From Sphingobacteriaceae bacterium (GTDB lineage: Bacteria > Bacteroidota > Bacteroidia > B-17B0 > Aurantibacillaceae): a stretch of DNA of 36,913 nt. The stretch lies in contig CANGGP010000034.1 in NCBI GenBank assembly GCA_947453445.1, positions 1 to 36,913 on the forward strand. The letters run 5' to 3'. The notes below the pieces were generated by a model, which had not been told where the DNA came from, did no database searches, and saw only the letters and a program-made list of their open reading frames with translations. Below are positions 2,793 through 29,060 of this stretch, in pieces. Each line of letters opens with the position of its first letter. The first letter of the stretch is position 1. A program made the position numbers and the translations under genes.

Positions 2793-3716
2793 CTTCCGCG
2801 CATAGGCGATATAAGGAATTGGTATGGTGTTGGTATTTAATTTTAATTTGTTGTTTTCGCTGATCACATTGGTATAACAGCCAAAAGTCCATGCAATACG
2901 GTTGCTGTGTAAGTATTTAAATCCGGCGCCTGCCAAGGCAACCATGGTTTGTGGAAACAACCAAACTTCACCATTAAAAGCAAATTTTTCGGTAAAACGA
3001 TTGCAATAGGCGCCACTAACAAATGGAATATTGAAGAAGTATTGGCTCGAGCTTGGATCAATCATCATGGCATTGATGGCTAGTAAGCCTGAAGAGATGG
3101 TAAAGTTTTTGTTGCCGGTGCCATGTGTGAATTTAGCCATGGCATTGTAACCCCAAAAAAATTGAGCGCCGCTGCTTCCTGCAAAAATATTACCAAGGGC
3201 ATTGACTGAAAATCCGTAGTAATTGTAATCGTTAATTTTAAAATTACACTTTGTGCCAATCGACACAGGATAAAACAACAAAGATCCTACTGTGATGGCC
3301 CAGTGATCGGTTAGGGCATAATCCATGTTTTGATAAATCAAATAATGGGTGTTGGAGTATGATTCGCCTTCACTAAATAAAAATGCAGTTCCTGAAAACA
3401 TATAATTCGCTGCGTGTTCATTGTCGCCAAAAATTTCTTCAGTATATCGCGTGTTTTGTTTTTTTTGTTTGTTGTCAATAATTTGTGATTTGTTGATTTC
3501 TACTTTCTCGAAATTGTTTCTGTTTTCAATTACAATGTAGTCTTTGGTTTCCTCCACAATAAAGCCCGTGTGCTTGGTGCCGATGCTGGTTTCGATGGTG
3601 TATAAAACGCCATGTCTATATTGTGGAACAAAAGTTGCTGTATCTTTGCCGGTTTGTGAAATTACCGCCAAATGCGCTGTAAGGATGAAAAATAATATAA
3701 CAAAGTGCTTTTTCAT
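2784..3716 (-). CDS. Exported hypothetical protein, barrel-like
   Basis: 310 residues, not assigned to a named family. Residues 1-20 are a signal peptide (MKKH, hydrophobic core, then ISQT). Residues about 35-75 (RHGVLYTIETSIGTKHTGFI and the following strands, ending in VEINKSQI) look like a small beta domain. The rest, from about 105 on, is Gly/aromatic-rich and alternating, as in a small outer-membrane beta-barrel, and it ends AYARKFK. The start ATG overlaps the prmC stop (ATGA), so it is probably translationally coupled as the last gene of the protease-prmC operon. The location in the outer membrane or periplasm is inferred from the signal peptide and composition only. Confidence 0.7.
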   Translation of the reverse strand: MKKHFVILFFILTAHLAVISQTGKDTATFVPQYRHGVLYTIETSIGTKHTGFIVEETKDYIVIENRNNFEKVEINKSQIIDNKQKKQNTRYTEEIFGDNEHAANYMFSGTAFLFSEGESYSNTHYLIYQNMDYALTDHWAITVGSLLFYPVSIGTKCNFKINDYNYYGFSVNALGNIFAGSSGAQFFWGYNAMAKFTHGTGNKNFTISSGLLAINAMMIDPSSSQYFFNIPFVSGAYCNRFTEKFAFNGEVWLFPQTMVALAGAGFKYLHSNRIAWTFGCYTNVISENNKLKLNTNTIPIPYIAYARKFK

Positions 3717-4585: not shown

Positions 4586-6709
4586 TTAGTCCTTAATTAT
4601 TTTAAAGCGATAAGCTTCTTGTCTGCTTTGAATGTTAATTAAAAGAAGGCCATGGTAATTGCTGAGTTTGTTAGAGGTGATGATAAATGCATCACTGTTG
4701 AAATTGCCTTCACATATTTTATCTCCGTTTAAGGCGTATACTTCATAATATCCGCCATCGCCATTGTTTAATTTAATTTGAATTTGTTCTTTAAAAGGAT
4801 TGGGGAAAAATTGAATGTTATTTTTTTCAAAGGCATCAATACCTGTATAAACTTTAATGTCGTTGCAGGTCATGCTGGCCTTGCCGTCTAATTTCCCGAA
4901 TCCCCATTGGTAATTGGGCACATTGCTGCCGGTATAAGCATCTTGGTATGCGCAGTAACGGATGGCATCGCGCACATCGCGGTTACTTGCTGAAGGATTT
5001 TTTTGTAAATACAAAGCGGCCAATCCCGCCACTACCGGCGCGGCTGCCGAAGTGCCGCCACCCATTACATGGTAACCGCCGGGCGCAACATTTTGCGGTT
5101 GCACCGAAATATAAACGGGTTTTAACGACATCACCACTGCACTAAATACCGAATTGCCGGTAGCACATACATCAGGTTTTATGCGTCCGTCGCGGGTAGG
5201 ACCGCTGCTGCTGGTTTGCGCAATTTTTCCGCCTGTTTCACCCAATGATTGAATTGTATTGTTGTAATCCTTAAACCGATACATGTTCACATAGTTGCCA
5301 ACCGTTATGACTTCTTCGCTATTTTGAAAACCACTCACCATGGTGTAAAAGGTGTCGGGCATCAAATATTTGGTGATTTTAGGATACTGCAATTGACTTG
5401 GTAATCCACTTGACACAAAATCAAAATTCCATGCGTGGTGTAAACCCTTGCCTGTTGTTTCTACACGCCAAAAAGTATTCACCGAGTCGGCGCGAATTTT
5501 ATAATACCATTCACACACACCGGAGGAGTTAACTGAACTGCTCATTTCGACTATACCAATGCGTTTGTTGTTTGCATAAATGGTGTCGCGTTTTATGCTG
5601 CTTAGTCCTGCCGTGTAATTTCTAAAAGGCGTTTTTGGCAGTTGACTATAATTTAAACGGTTGGCACCAATGCTGATTTTTAAATTTTTAAATTGAGCGG
5701 TATCGCCGTAACACCAATATTCAACTACTGAGGTATTGTTATTTAACCAGGTAAAGAGGGTGTCATTCGCAGTGCTGTTTGTTTTCACATGAAATTTATA
5801 GGCACCTGCATTGCCGGCTGCGGCAACCAAAGCTCGACCCGGATGATTGATGAGTTGGGCTTCAATGAGTTTTGATTCTAAGTCGGTTGCGTCGTGACTG
5901 CCATAATAGTCGCCCACGCTCACGTTGATGGCACATGCTTTATTGAATTGTTGTGCTTTTGAAAAAATGTATTTCACGGCATCGGCAATGGTTGGCCCAA
6001 AGCGATTAAAATCCAATGCCACCACAATTAAATCGGCTTTTGAAGCAACGCCTTCATGGGTGCCGTTGGCTCTGCCATTGCCGGCAGCAATGCCCGAAAC
6101 ATGGGTACCGTGACCATAATATGCCGCGTCGCTATGGCTGCATTGTCCGGCATTGATTTCGGTGGCTGTCCATTCGCGCCCATAATTAAATGGTGTTGGT
6201 GCATTCAAACTTGGGGAAACACTTTGATCCCACAAAAATTGGATGCGTGTAAGGCCAAGTGAATCTTTAAAATCAGGATGGTTAAAATCAGTGCCGGTAT
6301 CAATGATGCCAATTAAAACACCTTCACCGTTGTAGGCCTGCGTTAGCGGTGCCGTCCATACCTTAACCTGCTTAATTCGGTTGCGGTAAATCATGGTATC
6401 GTTTAATGGTCTTTTTTTTGAGTGAGGTAATTCGGCATATTGAATCAATCCTTTTTCCTGTAATGAAAAGAGCGTTGCGTAATTACATTCAATGGATGCA
6501 ATGTTTTTATCGCTGTACAATATTTTGAATTGCTCGCTTTTTTCGTATTTTTTAAGATCGTTAACTGAGCCTTCCACCAATATATTTAAACGTAAATCAT
6601 TGTTCGGTGAATTTTCATACATAAAGCGCAAGGCTGCATTCATCTGAGCGTTTTGGGAGACGCCGATAAAAATCCGAAACAAAAATATGGCGAGGAATAT
6701 CTGCCGCAT
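4586..6709 (-). CDS. Subtilisin-family (S8) protease with T9SS type A signal
   Basis: A secreted serine endopeptidase of 707 residues from the ATG at 6709. An upstream TTG at 6736 would also be open, but MRQIFLAIFLFRIFIGVSQ at the ATG is a proper signal peptide. The catalytic triad is visible: Asp in IGIIDTGTDFNHPDF (about residue 137), His in GHGTHVSGIAAGNG (about 200) and Ser in GGGTSAAAPVVAGL (about 554). The oxyanion Asn is in VAAAGNAG. About 350 residues separate His and Ser, so the catalytic domain carries a large insertion. The C-terminal 75 residues (from FFPNPFKEQIQI to the terminal RFKIIKD) are a T9SS type A sorting domain, so export across the outer membrane is expected. It is the first gene of the operon with prmC. 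Confidence 0.93.
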   Translation of the reverse strand: MRQIFLAIFLFRIFIGVSQNAQMNAALRFMYENSPNNDLRLNILVEGSVNDLKKYEKSEQFKILYSDKNIASIECNYATLFSLQEKGLIQYAELPHSKKRPLNDTMIYRNRIKQVKVWTAPLTQAYNGEGVLIGIIDTGTDFNHPDFKDSLGLTRIQFLWDQSVSPSLNAPTPFNYGREWTATEINAGQCSHSDAAYYGHGTHVSGIAAGNGRANGTHEGVASKADLIVVALDFNRFGPTIADAVKYIFSKAQQFNKACAINVSVGDYYGSHDATDLESKLIEAQLINHPGRALVAAAGNAGAYKFHVKTNSTANDTLFTWLNNNTSVVEYWCYGDTAQFKNLKISIGANRLNYSQLPKTPFRNYTAGLSSIKRDTIYANNKRIGIVEMSSSVNSSGVCEWYYKIRADSVNTFWRVETTGKGLHHAWNFDFVSSGLPSQLQYPKITKYLMPDTFYTMVSGFQNSEEVITVGNYVNMYRFKDYNNTIQSLGETGGKIAQTSSSGPTRDGRIKPDVCATGNSVFSAVVMSLKPVYISVQPQNVAPGGYHVMGGGTSAAAPVVAGLAALYLQKNPSASNRDVRDAIRYCAYQDAYTGSNVPNYQWGFGKLDGKASMTCNDIKVYTGIDAFEKNNIQFFPNPFKEQIQIKLNNGDGGYYEVYALNGDKICEGNFNSDAFIITSNKLSNYHGLLLINIQSRQEAYRFKIIKD

Positions 6710-14933: not shown

Positions 14934-16958
14934 ATGGCCTTTGAATTAATATCTGAATTTCAACCCACCGGTGATCAACCGGAAGCCATTCGCCAATTGG
15001 TGGAAGGCATTCACAATGGGACTAAAAACCAAGTGCTTCTGGGCGTAACAGGTTCTGGGAAAACCTTTACTGCAGCAAATGTCATTGCGCAAATAAACAA
15101 ACCCACACTCATACTTTGTCACAACAAAACATTGGCAGCTCAATTGTATTCAGAGTTCAAAATGTTTTTTCCCAACAACGCCGTTGAGTATTTTGTAAGT
15201 TATTACGATTATTATCAACCTGAAGCCTATTTACCAACCACCGGCACCTACATTGAAAAAGACTTGGCCATCAATGACGAAATTGAAAAGTGCCGTTTGA
15301 GTACTACTTCGGCATTGCTTTCAGGCAGAAGGGATGTAATAGTGGTGAGTTCAGTGAGCTGCATTTATGGTATGGGTAATCCAACTGATTTTAAACAAAA
15401 CATTTTGTCGATACATGTTGGGCAGGCTATTTCACGTAATAAATTGTTGCATCAATTTGTGGGTGCTCTATATTCAAGAACGACCGGGGATTTCGACAGA
15501 AGTACCTTTAGGGTAAAAGGCGACACCGTTGAAATTAATTTGCCGTACGCCGATTATTGTGTACGTATATTATTTTTTGGTGATGAAATTGAAACCATCG
15601 AAACTTTCGACAATGCCAATAACCACATCTTAAACAAACACGAGTCCATTACCATTTATCCCGCCAACATATTTGTGACCACGCCTGATACCATGCGCAA
15701 AGCCATGGTGTTTATTCAGGAAGACATGGAAAAACAAGTGGCCTTTTTTAAGACACAGGATAAAATGTTGGAAGCAAAACGCTTGGAAGAAAGAGTGAAT
15801 TATGATCTTGAAATGATGCGTGAATTGGGTTATTGCAGTGGCATTGAAAACTACTCACGTTATTTCGACGGTCGTTTACCGGGCACCAGACCTTTTTGTT
15901 TGATGGATTATTTTCCAAATGATTTTATCATGATGATTGATGAAAGCCACGTGACTTTACCACAGGTGAGGGCCATGTTTGGCGGGGATTTGAGTCGTAA
16001 ACAAAATTTGGTGGAATATGGTTTTCGATTGCCTGCGGCGCTTGACAACAGGCCTTTAAAATTTGAAGAGTTTTATGCCTTGTTAAATCAAACAGTGTAT
16101 ATTTCTGCTACGCCGGCTGATTTTGAATTGCAGGAGGCAGGTGGCATAGTGGTAGAGCAATTGATTCGTCCGACCGGCGTATTGGATCCTTTGATTGAAG
16201 TTCGACCATGCACCAATCAGGTGGATGATTTGTTGGATGAAATTCACAAGGTGGTGGAATTGGATGAACGCGTGTTGGTGACCACTTTAACCAAACGCAT
16301 GGCAGAAGAGTTGACCAAGTACTTGACGAAATTAAATGTACGTTGCAGATATATACACAGTGAAGTGGATACTTTGGATCGTGTAGAAATTTTAAGGCAG
16401 TTGCGTGTTGGCATGTTTGATGTATTGGTGGGCATTAACTTATTGCGTGAAGGATTGGATTTACCGGAAGTATCGCTGGTGGCTATTTTGGATGCAGATA
16501 AGGAAGGCTTTTTAAGAAATGAACGCAGTTTGGTGCAAACCGTTGGTCGTGCTGCCAGAAACGTGAATGGTCGCGTGATCATGTATGCTGATAAAATAAC
16601 TGACAGTATGCAAAAGACCATGGATGAGACTTTGCGGAGAAGGAAAAAACAAATAGAACATAATTTTAAACACAACATCACGCCCATTCAAGCCGGTAAA
16701 AAAAGCAAGCTCAGCAATTTTAGCGGCTTAGAAATTACGGTGGATGGTAAATTGGTGAAACCATACATTGAGCCGGATGAATTCAGCATGGCTGCAGATC
16801 CTGTGGTGCAATACATGAGCGCCGAAGAATTAAAAAAACAAATCGGTAAAATTAAAACAGCCATGATCAAAGCGGCTAAGGATATGGACTTTGCTCAGGC
16901 AGCAAGGTTGAGGGATGAAATGTATTCCTTGGAAAAAATGCTGGAAGGGAAGGAGTAG
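14934..16958 (+). CDS. uvrB: Excinuclease ABC subunit B
   Basis: The damage-verifying helicase of nucleotide excision repair, acting with UvrA and UvrC. 674 residues, the normal length. Walker A GVTGSGKT is at about 39-46, and the damage-probing beta-hairpin region starts at YYDYYQPEAYLP (about 92). Also seen are the IYGMGNP segment, DESHVTLPQVRAMFGGD (about 338-354), YISATPADFE, the motif VI region LVQTVGRAARNVNGRV, and a C-terminal UVR domain from about 635 (DMDFAQAARLRDEMYSLEKM) that contacts UvrC. The last 81 bases (16878-16958) have a second, 79% identical copy at 17586-17666 beyond a toxin-antitoxin pair. The junction with the upstream gene is 1 base, implying cotranscription. Confidence 0.97.
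   Translation: MAFELISEFQPTGDQPEAIRQLVEGIHNGTKNQVLLGVTGSGKTFTAANVIAQINKPTLILCHNKTLAAQLYSEFKMFFPNNAVEYFVSYYDYYQPEAYLPTTGTYIEKDLAINDEIEKCRLSTTSALLSGRRDVIVVSSVSCIYGMGNPTDFKQNILSIHVGQAISRNKLLHQFVGALYSRTTGDFDRSTFRVKGDTVEINLPYADYCVRILFFGDEIETIETFDNANNHILNKHESITIYPANIFVTTPDTMRKAMVFIQEDMEKQVAFFKTQDKMLEAKRLEERVNYDLEMMRELGYCSGIENYSRYFDGRLPGTRPFCLMDYFPNDFIMMIDESHVTLPQVRAMFGGDLSRKQNLVEYGFRLPAALDNRPLKFEEFYALLNQTVYISATPADFELQEAGGIVVEQLIRPTGVLDPLIEVRPCTNQVDDLLDEIHKVVELDERVLVTTLTKRMAEELTKYLTKLNVRCRYIHSEVDTLDRVEILRQLRVGMFDVLVGINLLREGLDLPEVSLVAILDADKEGFLRNERSLVQTVGRAARNVNGRVIMYADKITDSMQKTMDETLRRRKKQIEHNFKHNITPIQAGKKSKLSNFSGLEITVDGKLVKPYIEPDEFSMAADPVVQYMSAEELKKQIGKIKTAMIKAAKDMDFAQAARLRDEMYSLEKMLEGKE
16878..16958 (+). 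repeat. Direct repeat, copy 1: 3' end of uvrB
   Basis: The last 26 codons plus stop of uvrB. It aligns without gaps to 17586-17666 with 17 differences in 81 bases; in the final 45 bases only 4 differ. Similarity fades but persists for about 15 T-rich bases past the stop. It marks the left edge of a roughly 630-base segment carrying the toxin-antitoxin genes. Confidence 0.85.
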
Positions 16959-16964
16959 TTACAG

Positions 16965-17270
16965 TTATTTTTTTCGTTTAACGCTTTTGTATTTTTTGTT
17001 TGTGCTTGCCCTGCTTGGATAAACACCGTGGATATAAATAAAACTTTTTTCTACAGTATAAATAAGTTTGTAAGGAAAGTTTTTAGTTTTTCTTTCTCGT
17101 GTCGATTTATAGTAACTTGCATAGCCTAGCGGTAACAGAGATATTTCTTCTGCGGCCAAATCAACTTCTTCCATAAAACGGATACCAAGTCCATTCTGTT
17201 TTTCTTCATAGTACAAAGCATGTTTAACAACATCTGCTTTTGCATTTTCAGTGAAGATAAAAGGAAGCAT
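16965..17270 (-). CDS. RelE/ParE-family toxin
   Basis: 101 residues, a typical type II toxin size. The fold signature is recognisable: FTENAKADVVKHALYYEEKQ (first helix), GIRFMEEVDLAAEEISLLPL (second helix), then RERKTKNFPYKLIYTVEKSF and IYIHGVYPSRAS, the beta-sheet with the conserved FPY-x-[IL]-x-Y pattern and Arg near the end. Members inhibit either gyrase (ParE) or translation (RelE); which one cannot be told here. The gene lies one base downstream of its antitoxin gene, on the strand opposite to uvrB, and its stop is only 6 bases from the uvrB stop. Confidence 0.85.
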   Translation of the reverse strand: MLPFIFTENAKADVVKHALYYEEKQNGLGIRFMEEVDLAAEEISLLPLGYASYYKSTRERKTKNFPYKLIYTVEKSFIYIHGVYPSRASTNKKYKSVKRKK

Positions 17271-17271
17271 T

Positions 17272-17505
17272 TTACTTTTTTATTGCTTGTAATACGGCCT
17301 TTCTTACTTCATCAATTGTGTAATATTTTAACTTACCGGCTTTGTGGTCTGCCAATCGCTTATCTAATTCCTTTTTTTCCGCAGAAGTTAAATCTACGGT
17401 TTGTTCTGAAGGATTAAGTATAGATTCAACTGCTTTCAAAATCCTTTTATCTTCCGTGTCAAACAGTTTCTGGGCTAATAATATTTTATTTTTTGCAGTT
17501 ATCAT
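17272..17505 (-). CDS. Antitoxin of the RelE/ParE pair
   Basis: 77 residues. The C-terminal half, LTSAEKKELDKRLADHKAGK followed by LKYYTIDEVRKAVLQAIKK, matches the unstable antitoxin (addiction module protein) type that partners RelE/ParE toxins. The N-terminal half, MITAKNKILLAQKLFDTEDK and the next helix, has no recognised DNA-binding fold but probably helps dimerise. The start is the ATG at 17505. A TAAATTTG box on the minus strand at 17529-17536 may be the promoter. Antitoxin first, toxin second, with 1 base between them, is the usual order. Confidence 0.82.
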   Translation of the reverse strand: MITAKNKILLAQKLFDTEDKRILKAVESILNPSEQTVDLTSAEKKELDKRLADHKAGKLKYYTIDEVRKAVLQAIKK

Positions 17506-17528
17506 TCTTCAAGTATTTACCTTAATAA

Positions 17529-17536
17529 CAAATTTA
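17529..17536 (-). promoter_or_regulatory. Candidate -7 box of the toxin-antitoxin operon
   Basis: TAAATTTG on the minus strand fits TAnnTTTG and ends 23 bases before the antitoxin ATG. The -33 element is not convincing in this AT-rich stretch. Confidence 0.4.
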
Positions 17537-17570
17537 ATGATTTTATTTTTATGTTTATTAAGTTAATAGG

Positions 17571-17666
17571 ATGTTTAAAGCTTTCAAGTGTATAGACTTT
17601 TCGATGGCACCGAGATTAACAGATGAAATGTATTCCTTAGAAAGAATGCTGGAGGGGAAGGAGTAA
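17571..17666 (+). pseudogene. Detached second copy of the uvrB 3' end
   Basis: A 31-codon reading frame (ATG at 17571, TAA at 17664-17666) whose last 26 codons align with the end of UvrB: C-I-D-F-S-M-A-P-R-L then TDEMYSLERMLEGKE against the UvrB end RDEMYSLEKMLEGKE. Of the 4 base changes in the last 45 bases, 2 are silent, 1 swaps stop codons (TAG/TAA) and 1 is Lys to Arg. This is the right-hand copy of the direct repeat around the toxin-antitoxin pair (17586-17666 versus 16878-16958). It is most likely a stranded gene end rather than an expressed peptide. Confidence 0.75.
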
Positions 17667-17731
17667 TTTCAATTTTTTTTGTAAATTGTATTGTGTTTGG
17701 AACCCATTTTTCTTAATCAAATCGGAATAGA

Positions 17732-18715
17732 ATGAAAAAAGTCTTACTTCCATTTATTTTAGTTTTCTTTTTTAATTATGCAAAATCACAAGTAGTTTTT
17801 TGTCCACCGGGTGCAACTTGGAATTATGTTGAGAAAGGAATTATTGCCGGGATTGATGGCATTATGGAATTTAAGTATACAAACGATGTAATGGTAAATG
17901 GTATTAATTGTAAATTAATTCAGGGTTCTTTTAAAGGAAGTAGAATAGGTTATACAATTAATGGCAATGCTGGTTTTCAAAATGTTGTTGATTATAAGGT
18001 CTACGAAAACAATAAAGTTATTTATTTGTACAATGGCTCAAGTTTTGATACAATAATAAATTTTAACGCTGTTATCGGCGATAAGTGGCGTGAATTGTAC
18101 CGTGCCCAAAGTGTTCGTTGCTCAAATCGGAGGGGGTATTATACGGTTATTGACACTAGCCATATTACTATTAATAACATAAGTTTAAAAAGAATACAAG
18201 CAGCTTATTATAAAGTTCCACTTGCTATTGGAATTCCAAGTGTTCTCACATTCACAACTTATTTTGTGGAAAGATTAATGTTTCAGGGTAGCATTTTCAA
18301 TACTTATGGTGATTTGTTCAGTTATTATTGCAATTACAATGATATTAATGAGAATCCTTCGTTTTACTTGTTATGCTATCATGATGATACTTTCTCTACT
18401 TATCAAACTTCTGCCAGAAATTGCGATGATCTCACTGGAATAACAAATACAAAATCCCAAAGTTTTAACATACAATTGTATCCTAATCCAACAAATGGTC
18501 TGCTGACTATTAATTTTGAAAGTGCTGACCATATGGGTAATTGCGAAATTAAATTGATTGATGTTTTAGGCGTAACTGAGATTTTACATTTAAATAAGTC
18601 GAAACAAATTGGTGAAATACGACTTGATTTAAGCCCATTACAGAACGGCATTTACTTTTTACAAGTTTGGGATCATGGAAAACTAATTGCCAATGAAAAA
18701 GTGCTGAAGGATTGA
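17732..18715 (+). CDS. Secreted protein with T9SS type A sorting domain
   Basis: 327 residues. The signal peptide is MKKVLLPFILVFFFNYAKSQ with cleavage near Ser-Gln. The middle (about 25-240) is strand-rich, has several Cys (CPPGATWNY, NCKLIQGSF, SVRCSNRRGYY, YYCNYND, CDDLTGI) and no recognised enzyme motif. From about 248 the C-terminus is a type A sorting domain: FNIQLYPNPTNGLLTINFES, then IKLIDVLG, LDLSPLQNGIYFLQV and the final KVLKD. It is therefore an outer-surface or released protein of unknown role. It lies just beyond the duplicated uvrB tail, and its third-position base use is more AT-rich than that of uvrB. Confidence 0.82.
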   Translation: MKKVLLPFILVFFFNYAKSQVVFCPPGATWNYVEKGIIAGIDGIMEFKYTNDVMVNGINCKLIQGSFKGSRIGYTINGNAGFQNVVDYKVYENNKVIYLYNGSSFDTIINFNAVIGDKWRELYRAQSVRCSNRRGYYTVIDTSHITINNISLKRIQAAYYKVPLAIGIPSVLTFTTYFVERLMFQGSIFNTYGDLFSYYCNYNDINENPSFYLLCYHDDTFSTYQTSARNCDDLTGITNTKSQSFNIQLYPNPTNGLLTINFESADHMGNCEIKLIDVLGVTEILHLNKSKQIGEIRLDLSPLQNGIYFLQVWDHGKLIANEKVLKD

Positions 18716-18718
18716 TTC

Positions 18719-18820
18719 GATTAAATGGAACGCAGATGACGCTGATAATCATGATTTTAATTGATTAATCTGCGACTATCTGCTCAATCTTAGTTATCTG
18801 TGTGCAAAATATAATCTGCG
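18719..18820. repeat. Degenerate CGCAGAT/ATCTGCG repeat region
   Basis: Non-coding sequence with CGCAGAT at 18731 and recurring ATCTGCG/ATCTGC/ATCTGTG words at 18768, 18778, 18796 and 18814, spaced irregularly. This wording (ACGCAGAT...GATAATCATGATTTT...ATCTGCG) resembles a dispersed intergenic repeat found in Bacteroidota. It occupies much of the 288-base gap between the convergent genes at 17732 and 19004. Confidence 0.5.
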
Positions 18821-18829
18821 CTAGGGACA

Positions 18830-18960
18830 TGCAGGGCTTGGTTCTTTTGGGTCGGTGCCTCTTTTACCGACCCAAAAAACCACGACAAATTGCATTGCAC
18901 TTTTGGGCGAGCCTGTGTGAGGATAGCGGAGCCCGAAATGGCCCGCTCGAGCGCCCAAAT
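18830..18960. repeat. Intergenic palindromic repeat with strong hairpin
   Basis: TTTTGGGTCGGT (18845-18856) and ACCGACCCAAAA (18866-18877) form a perfect 12-bp stem with a 9-base loop. This is followed by a second, imperfect inverted repeat bounded by TTTTGGGCGAGC and GCTCGAGCGCCCAAA near 18900-18960. The hairpin sits between convergent genes and might stop transcription, but neither strand has a T-tract directly after the stem, so a repeat element is the better call. Compare 12700-12830. Confidence 0.55.
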
Positions 18961-19003
18961 AAAATAAGTATAATTGTTTAAGTGTATAAAACTTTATATG
19001 TCT

Positions 19004-28619: not shown

Positions 28620-29060
28620 TTATTCTTGCGCAGAAAAATAAGATTCCAATAAAACTTCCTTGTTATTTTTATCCAAAACCAAATCGCTTACGCCATTGGT
28701 AATCATCAGTAATTCGGCTTGTAGCACCAAATTATAACGTTTGGCCTGTGCAACAGTATTCAAATCGAGTTGAATGTAAGGAGCCTTGCATTCAATAATC
28801 ATTAAGGGTGTGAGGGTATTGTTATACACCACAATATCGAATCTTTTTTTTAGGTCGTTGAGTTGCAATTCTTTTTCGATGGCAATTTTACTTGCAGAAA
28901 TTTTCAACACATTGATAAGGTAATGCAGTACATGTTGGCGCACCCATTCTTCAGGACTCATCACCAGCCATTTTTTGCGAACAGCGTCGAAAATATAGGT
29001 TTTATCCTTGTTTTTTTTCAGCCGCACATCGAAAGTGGGATATTTTAAGCCATTGTTCAA
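28620..29060 (-). CDS. Stand-alone HsdR-N-type PD-(D/E)xK domain protein
   Basis: 146 residues, a single domain similar to the N-terminal part of type I restriction HsdR proteins (HSDR_N_2). The nuclease signature is visible: RFDIVVYNNTLTPLMIIECK contains the Asp and the E-C-K pair of a PD-(D/E)xK site, preceded by a helix with SPEEWVRQHVLHYLINVLKI and followed by a conserved Q-A-K-R-Y segment. No helicase, methylase or specificity subunit is nearby, so it is not a restriction system. Such solo proteins occur near replication genes in Bacteroidota and may serve DNA processing; function is unknown. The start used is TTG at 29060, since no ATG is in frame upstream of the conserved part. Confidence 0.8.
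   Translation of the reverse strand: MNNGLKYPTFDVRLKKNKDKTYIFDAVRKKWLVMSPEEWVRQHVLHYLINVLKISASKIAIEKELQLNDLKKRFDIVVYNNTLTPLMIIECKAPYIQLDLNTVAQAKRYNLVLQAELLMITNGVSDLVLDKNNKEVLLESYFSAQE

Follow-up and report, generated by a model that had tools for sequence, protein, structure and literature searches.

We analysed a contig of 36.9 kb (CANGGP010000034.1, hereafter the window) from the 3.7-Mb genome, in 153 contigs, of a Sphingobacteriaceae bacterium, in which a toxin-antitoxin (TA) pair is sandwiched between the intact 3' end of uvrB and a second, decayed copy of that end. Judged by sequence comparison, this sandwich belongs to a recurrent class in Bacteroidia, in which TA pairs are bracketed by copies of the 3' or 5' end of a neighbouring gene, a pattern suggesting how TA pairs that encode no recombinase could spread. 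The class supplies actual insertion events as well as empty sites, together with a route, open to testing, for chromosomal TA spread without transposon, phage or integron. It also cautions that such insertions can leave scars in the form of short in-frame pieces of gene ends. Below, L, G and C denote locus, genome and contig, D1 and D2 are the two copies of a gene end, and gene names other than uvrB are our own reading of the sequences.

A repeat search of the window returned a single direct-repeat family, pairing 16863-16972 with 17571-17680 (76% identity over 110 nt, spacing 708). Counted from 16863/17571 to the stop codons, D1 and D2 are 76% identical over 96 nt in a common reading frame and 79% identical over the final 81 nt; D1 stops with TAG and D2 with TAA, and the translated ends read ...DEMYSLEKMLEGKE and ...DEMYSLERMLEGKE, respectively. 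The first-pass annotation of this DNA had described the repeat as 16878-16958 and 17586-17666; its 79% over 81 nt holds, while the true start lies further upstream and blastn similarity continues 14 nt past the stop. Its placing of a TA pair at 16965-17505 between the uvrB end and the second copy was borne out by the open reading frames (ORFs), the repeat search and the PF09720 match. By profile matches, the pair is a putative type II TA with a ParE/RelE-like toxin and a PF09720 antitoxin: the antitoxin scores above the cut-offs of PF09720 (31.3 vs 23.3 bits) and TIGR02574 (34 vs 31.9), and the toxin matches PF05016 ParE_toxin with 19.1 bits, under the cut-off of 23 (E=0.002). At E<=0.01, PF05016 matched 9 of 11 aligned toxins, the window toxin among them, and in an alignment the window toxin is 15-32% identical to ten toxins from other loci; a PDB sequence search gave two weak matches only, both to designed proteins. 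Gene order, sizes and antitoxin family are those of type II TAs of this kind, and only the gene-end sandwich is unusual. Between D1 and D2 the ORFs comprise the TA pair and short overlapping frames only, confirming a minimal unit; no recombinase was present in the TA unit, as judged from the window ORFs and from the ORF lists of other units inspected by eye.

Table 1 Features of the uvrB sandwich and its surroundings in the window.
Feature	Coordinates	Strand	Basis or remark
uvrB, intact host gene, 674 aa	14934-16958	+	ORF; Pfam UvrB, UvrB_inter and UVR domains
D1, functional uvrB 3' end, first repeat copy	16863-16958	+	Repeat search, alignment, relatives' states
ParE/RelE-like toxin ORF, 101 aa	16965-17270	-	ORF; convergent, end 6 nt from uvrB stop
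Antitoxin ORF, 77 aa, PF09720/TIGR02574	17272-17505	-	Profile matches
Antitoxin leader, 65 nt, presumed promoter region	17506-17570	-	Inferred from position only
D2, decayed second uvrB 3' end, own stop codon	17571-17666	+	Repeat search, alignment, codon comparison
Extra DNA between uvrB and gnat, 2,045 nt	16959-19003		Compared with 15-134 nt in 13 same-genus genomes
T9SS-sorted protein gene (Por_Secre_tail)	17732-18715	+	Further cargo of the gap, outside the sandwich

No second uvrB tail was found in any other of 136 readable uvrB loci, our own included (next best ungapped identity 0.56). In this set 125 of the 136 loci had at least 600 nt downstream and some genomes were in twice (L082/G035, L083/G013); 11 further loci had no readable uvrB end. 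An 861-base stretch searched against its own genome at the DNA level matched this copy alone. Chance was excluded as the origin of the second tail, with blastn at E=1.65e-18 and the own-tail best of other uvrB loci at 0.56 ungapped, and so was an assembly artefact, both tails lying in frame on one contig and the pattern recurring in other genomes. An apparent second tail in G060, where C18 stops just past uvrB and C4 opens with the uvrB end, was read as a contig-end overlap.

In 13 same-genus genomes, the convergent gene gnat follows uvrB after 15-134 nt. Across 37 same-genus stretches gnat lay downstream of uvrB in 21 and was lacking in 16, partly from contig ends; the gap measured 239-3,079 nt in seven stretches, and in G060 it is about 460 nt, on the second contig. 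These larger gaps of relatives are filled by other sequence, and none of 144 other uvrB-region loci (some genomes repeated) matched any of 16 TA proteins. Since the gap of relatives is short, other uvrB loci have no second tail and no TA match occurs there, the window cassette is, on this comparative evidence, a derived insertion, as first proposed. Single-copy empty sites occur in relatives for uvrB, for the locus of genus g9 described below and for an xseB-like gene (G353), all of them in other species, not strains. Separately, L188 (G017), L198 (G021) and L199 (G035) carry different ORFs across 1.3-3.1 kb of the convergent uvrB-gnat gap, which may therefore be a general landing place.

On the question, raised in the first-pass annotation, of which copy matches the ancestral tail, D1 is the ancestral one as regards function. 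At 8 of the 11 first- and second-position differences, D1 has the state of at least 31 of 36 relative sequences (one genome in twice) and D2 differs; at the remaining three, relatives vary or match neither copy. By codon position the differences number 6/5/12, and 11 of the single-base differences are synonymous and 12 nonsynonymous, a pattern that fits constraint on D1 and free decay of D2. Third-position divergence between D1 and D2 is 11 of 31 codons (0.355), compared with 0.516 in the tail and 0.455 over the gene for G000-G009. This weakly hints that D1 and D2 parted inside this lineage, weakly because the tails of G019 (0.355) and G001 (0.387) are equally or almost as near. The differences are also uneven along the copies, with 19 in the first 51 nt and 4 in the last 45 (permutation p=0.0065), a hint of mosaicism. 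On these comparisons, the window D2 is too decayed to tell a carried-in end from a local duplication.

Blasting TA loci on themselves revealed an mrp-like gene of G028 with a matching architecture and a similar spacing (L037, 707), and other sandwiched genes are xseB-, MBOAT-, SafE-, cysteine-desulfurase- and rnfA-like. With sandwiches of this kind present at further genes, and at gene starts as well, the earlier idea of uvrB as a special target is not supported. PF09720 is found in 11 of 40 genomes of the genus and 95 of 395 of the class, and PF05016 in 172 of 295 of the class. From the PF09720 set, 80 loci were fetched and 78 scored for direct repeats of spacing 450-1,100 spanning the antitoxin centre. 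Such a pair spans the centre in 16 of 78 loci and points at +200 and +400 nt in 17 of 78, falling to 4-6 at points 600-1,000 nt away and to 0-4 of 73-77 at offsets of at least 1,200 nt. The PF05016 loci, for which those coming straight from searches were assigned one assumed centre and the lower spacing limit was 400 in place of 450, gave 9 of 30 and 12 of 60 (spacing 400-1,100), and Acetyltransf_3 control loci gave 0 of 30 over the same spacings, these controls being the best-scoring members of one family. Together, 37 of 168 TA loci have spanning repeats against 0 of 30 controls (p=0.0017), with no overlap between the two TA sets.

At least 13 of these 37 repeats, chosen by eye among the repeat matches, are copies of a neighbouring gene's 3' or 5' end: 7 of 16 in the PF09720 set (L284, L308, L329, L338, L340, L342, L347) and 6 of 21 in the PF05016 sets (L381, L395, L415, L421, L445, L463). 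L271 (-6) and L309 stand outside this count, no clear gene having been recognised, and the 44 PF09720 loci from searches also include the window, L037 (as L239) and L255. Compared with about 2 orphan ends in 944 background genes (117 uvrB-region loci), gene ends at 13 of 168 TA loci are strongly enriched (p about 1e-9); the background C-terminal copies mostly look like tandem paralogues or repeats, and the orphan-like ones are the window and perhaps L144. Related toxins, 59% identical, adjoin different genes in opposite orientations, and the copied end therefore belongs to the target, not to the TA.

Multiple copies also occur. L338 carries two different TAs in tandem with a gene-end copy after each, and 4 of 6 sibling genomes have the gene, the match stopping at its stop, without an adjoining TA match. 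In L505 (G433), L502 (G439) and L338 the gene end is present at least three times with cargo between, and these arrays look as if insertion had been repeated at one gene end. L039 (G036:C45) has a repeat of ~100 nt at 313-425, 1267-1377 and 2158-2257, interleaved with two apparent TA modules. In L295 (G040:C8), the end of an ABC-ATPase gene (lptB-like, our own reading) is duplicated at 3552-3627 and 5448-5523 (76 nt, 95%); other ORFs fill the roughly 1.8 kb that separate the copies, and a TA lies just outside. The E. coli folA-apaH region with ccd was rejected as a second case: the matches to the listed ccd strains are split into two pieces that together account for 89-90% of the query, which makes the intergenic DNA look replaced (no such strain was inspected directly).

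The copied homology tends to end where the gene does, at its stop or start codon. Among fifteen 3'-end cases with a recognisable gene, it ends -1 to +2 nt from the stop-codon end in ten (L037, L329, L338, L342, L347, L381, L421, L445, L255 and the W gene end in G452), and the junctions of L338, L342 and L381 fall after the 'TA' of the stop. The TA is codirectional with the gene in L347, L342, L338, L329, L308 and L381, with the toxin end 3-26 nt from D2 in 5 of these 6, and convergent with it in the window, L037, L340, L284, L255, L445 and L421. RelE cleaves mRNA at stop codons. Toxin cleavage of mRNA was nevertheless dismissed as the source of the codon-precise junctions, the third-base differences being general synonymous divergence, gene starts behaving alike and some TAs being antisense.

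The differences between copies bear on their origin. Ten D1-D2 pairs outside the window sum to 38 synonymous and 10 nonsynonymous differences, and 38 of 48 exceeds both the neutral expectation of 21% (p about 1e-17) and the approximately 34% expected if D1 were constrained and D2 free (p about 3e-10). In L338, D1 and D2 differ by 9 synonymous and 1 nonsynonymous changes and D1 and D3 by 4 and 0, and in L340 all eight coding differences are synonymous. The test uses the first nine codons only of L037, leaves D1-D3 of L338 unsummed, sums the window apart, gains no difference from L347, and omits L308 (gapped), L284 and L395 (copy short of the stop) and G452. Because the differences are mostly synonymous, D1 and D2 seem to represent two lineages and not a fresh duplication of the target; with conservation between lineages confined to coding sequence, homology would then stop at the stop codon. 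A target duplication decaying after insertion does not yield a synonymous excess, whereas two working gene ends do.

A series of states at one locus is available in genus g9 (45 genomes, 43 with a match), between an enoyl-CoA hydratase-like gene W and a flippase-like gene X. The W-X site is empty in G429, G220, G246, G397, G127, G413, G435, G430, G445 and G159, and holds related TAs in G044, G272, G439, G440, G428, G433, G190, G423, G339 and G452 (G190 and G423 being nearly one sequence: TA 99%, W 100%); further genomes have other or unread content there. From W through D2, G044 aligns unbroken onto the TA-less G429 (84%) and G220 (82%), whose intact X start sits at the position of the G044 D2, and G429 and the G044 D2 have a common TTG start with 10 of 12 upstream bases equal. 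By this unbroken alignment onto TA-less W-X sites, the displaced copy in G044 is evidently the native X start. Among ten X-start copies in eight genomes, seven have a start codon other than the one used by the intact X, and upstream of the start nine copies share 1-6 of 12 bases with X. In G452 it is the W end whose two copies enclose a related TA; 127 of 133 positions are equal and the match runs to the stop. Gene X itself seems to recombine, judging by identities of 92% for X vs 80% for W between G044 and G452, and of 90% (at most 155 nt compared) vs 77% between G190 and G440. L519 (G427) and L511 (G091) have copies of the X start close to short matches that look TA-like (about 60 and 134 nt) and may be TA remnants, in which case sandwiches can outlive their TA. 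The first-pass suggestion that the cassette carries its own version of the end is thus upheld for the class, by the synonymous divergence and the g9 series, and undecided for uvrB itself (11 vs 12).

We consider it probable that a TA and a foreign version of a gene end enter together by recombination in a conserved gene, leaving the native end behind. On one side, DNA carrying a gene end and a TA would recombine with the conserved host gene (homologous or homeologous exchange); on the other, immediately after the TA, it would be joined by a short-homology or illegitimate event within the last 40-200 nt of the host gene. The product would be a gene with an intact end (D1), the TA, a displaced truncated end (D2) and the old downstream DNA, and D2 would decay afterwards. 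We infer this recombination route, and that the uvrB of this genome took the same one; our searches returned no donor sequences for the foreign allele. More tentatively, ParE-type chromosomal TAs could be recombinase-free mobile units, each made of a TA and the copied 3' or 5' end of the adjoining conserved gene as a portable homology arm. Ordinary homologous recombination would then insert the TA in other species and keep the gene intact even without shared intergenic DNA, with the three-copy arrays (L338, G433, G439) arising by repetition.

Several observations weigh against entry by recombination in the conserved gene. In the window, the 11 synonymous and 12 nonsynonymous differences agree with plain duplication followed by decay, and the G001 tail is the nearest relative of both D1 and D2. 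Homology is off the stop in 5 of the 15 three-prime cases: blastn similarity reaches 14 nt beyond it in the window, and the offsets are +36 in L308, +133 in L340, -66 in L284 and -7 in L395. Gene ends alone, at 13 of 168 TA loci vs 0 of 30 controls, are not significantly enriched (p=0.22), 131 of the 168 TA loci lack such a flanking repeat, and many of those that were counted are low-complexity or dispersed sequence, non-coding or unread (L290, L298, L302, L323 and L402 among them). In g9, the 5' set, at 25 synonymous to 19 nonsynonymous differences, exceeds the mixed expectation only weakly (p=0.037), the G339 copy runs upstream of the start codon with 11 of 12 bases equal, and G428 has a TA and no detected X copy. 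Random end joining does not explain the tight end of the unit, 3-26 nt from D2, and the proposed mechanism likewise leaves the copied-end length of about 40-200 nt unexplained.

The strongest competitor, which we nonetheless regard as unlikely, is insertion of the TA with simultaneous duplication of about 40-200 bp of target, D2 decaying later. The architecture and lengths match the description of long, variable duplications, on the order of 100 bp, in the accessible part of PMC3874152; the copies in L347 are 100% identical (51 nt) and those in L445 98.5% (66 nt), and the window is compatible. Decay after insertion does not predict that the ten other pairs differ mainly at synonymous sites, and the differing start codons in 7 of 10 g9 copies and the ending of homology mostly at codon boundaries also speak against it. 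Were duplication to come first and the intact gene on the D1 side then to be replaced by a diverged allele through homologous recombination, the synonymous divergence would be accommodated, and gene X in g9, more alike than W between genomes, appears to recombine; this sequence of events is nevertheless improbable, as most cases would need one event more, and it does not lead one to expect homology to end at the stop codon.

The prophage e14 and phage 21 at icd, and elements in the 3' ends of tRNA genes, substitute a functional end and displace the native one. The sandwiches resemble these integrative elements and phages in having a substituted functional end and a displaced native end, the products expected if a recombinase acting in trans integrated a unit that supplies the replacement end. 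Unlike them, the unit is about 0.6-1 kb with no recombinase seen, has varied target genes and occurs at gene starts too. Such site-specific integration, as the first-pass annotation had envisaged, is very hard to credit: the ends are those of different genes, D varies in length and position, one locus has related TAs with different flanking gene ends, and no recombinase is among the ORFs between the repeats (a common core was not searched for systematically). Nothing points to it, and recombination in a conserved gene fits better. An integron cassette was set aside, the bounds being in-frame coding gene ends (no attC model or integrase search was applied).

The flanking-repeat pattern is not wholly new for addiction modules, because some restriction-modification (R-M) systems are reported, in the accessible parts of PMC3874152 and PMC1643837, to insert with long target duplications. 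The former, with Nobusato 2000 and Furuta 2010 as its sources, describes these as variable and about 100 bp in order of magnitude, the latter cites Nobusato 2000 for the same mode of insertion, and this mode is reported for R-M genes in Helicobacter pylori. As far as these accounts go, in both cases an addiction-type gene pair is enclosed by direct repeats of target sequence that are long (about 100 bp) and variable, whereas the present repeats stop mostly at codon boundaries, with synonymous differences between the copies, the cargo is a TA and the hosts are Bacteroidia. In the literature that was accessible, most subscription journals being outside the search, no description of gene-end sandwiches around TA pairs was found.

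Homology-facilitated illegitimate recombination, described in the available text of PMC3240628 for three competent species and at low frequency for E. coli, likewise joins one end by homology and the other illegitimately, and would put foreign DNA beside a homologous gene. Unlike in that experimentally defined process, as far as it is set out there, a short displaced gene end is a product that we infer, with which the D1/D2 synonymous divergence and the g9 series would fit. Transformation can also create duplications via pairing across chromatids, according to the part of PMC3784515 available to us.

Elsewhere in the window, 18817-18965 is a dispersed, strongly hairpinned repeat with matches on more than 10 other contigs of this genome. 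Rfam gave no above-threshold match for it and one sub-threshold match at chance level; it was rejected as a cassette boundary, lying about 1.1 kb away from D2. A second short dispersed repeat is at about 18723-18780. At 28620-29060, a lone 146-aa ORF matches the HsdR N-terminal domain PF13588 (109.8 bits).

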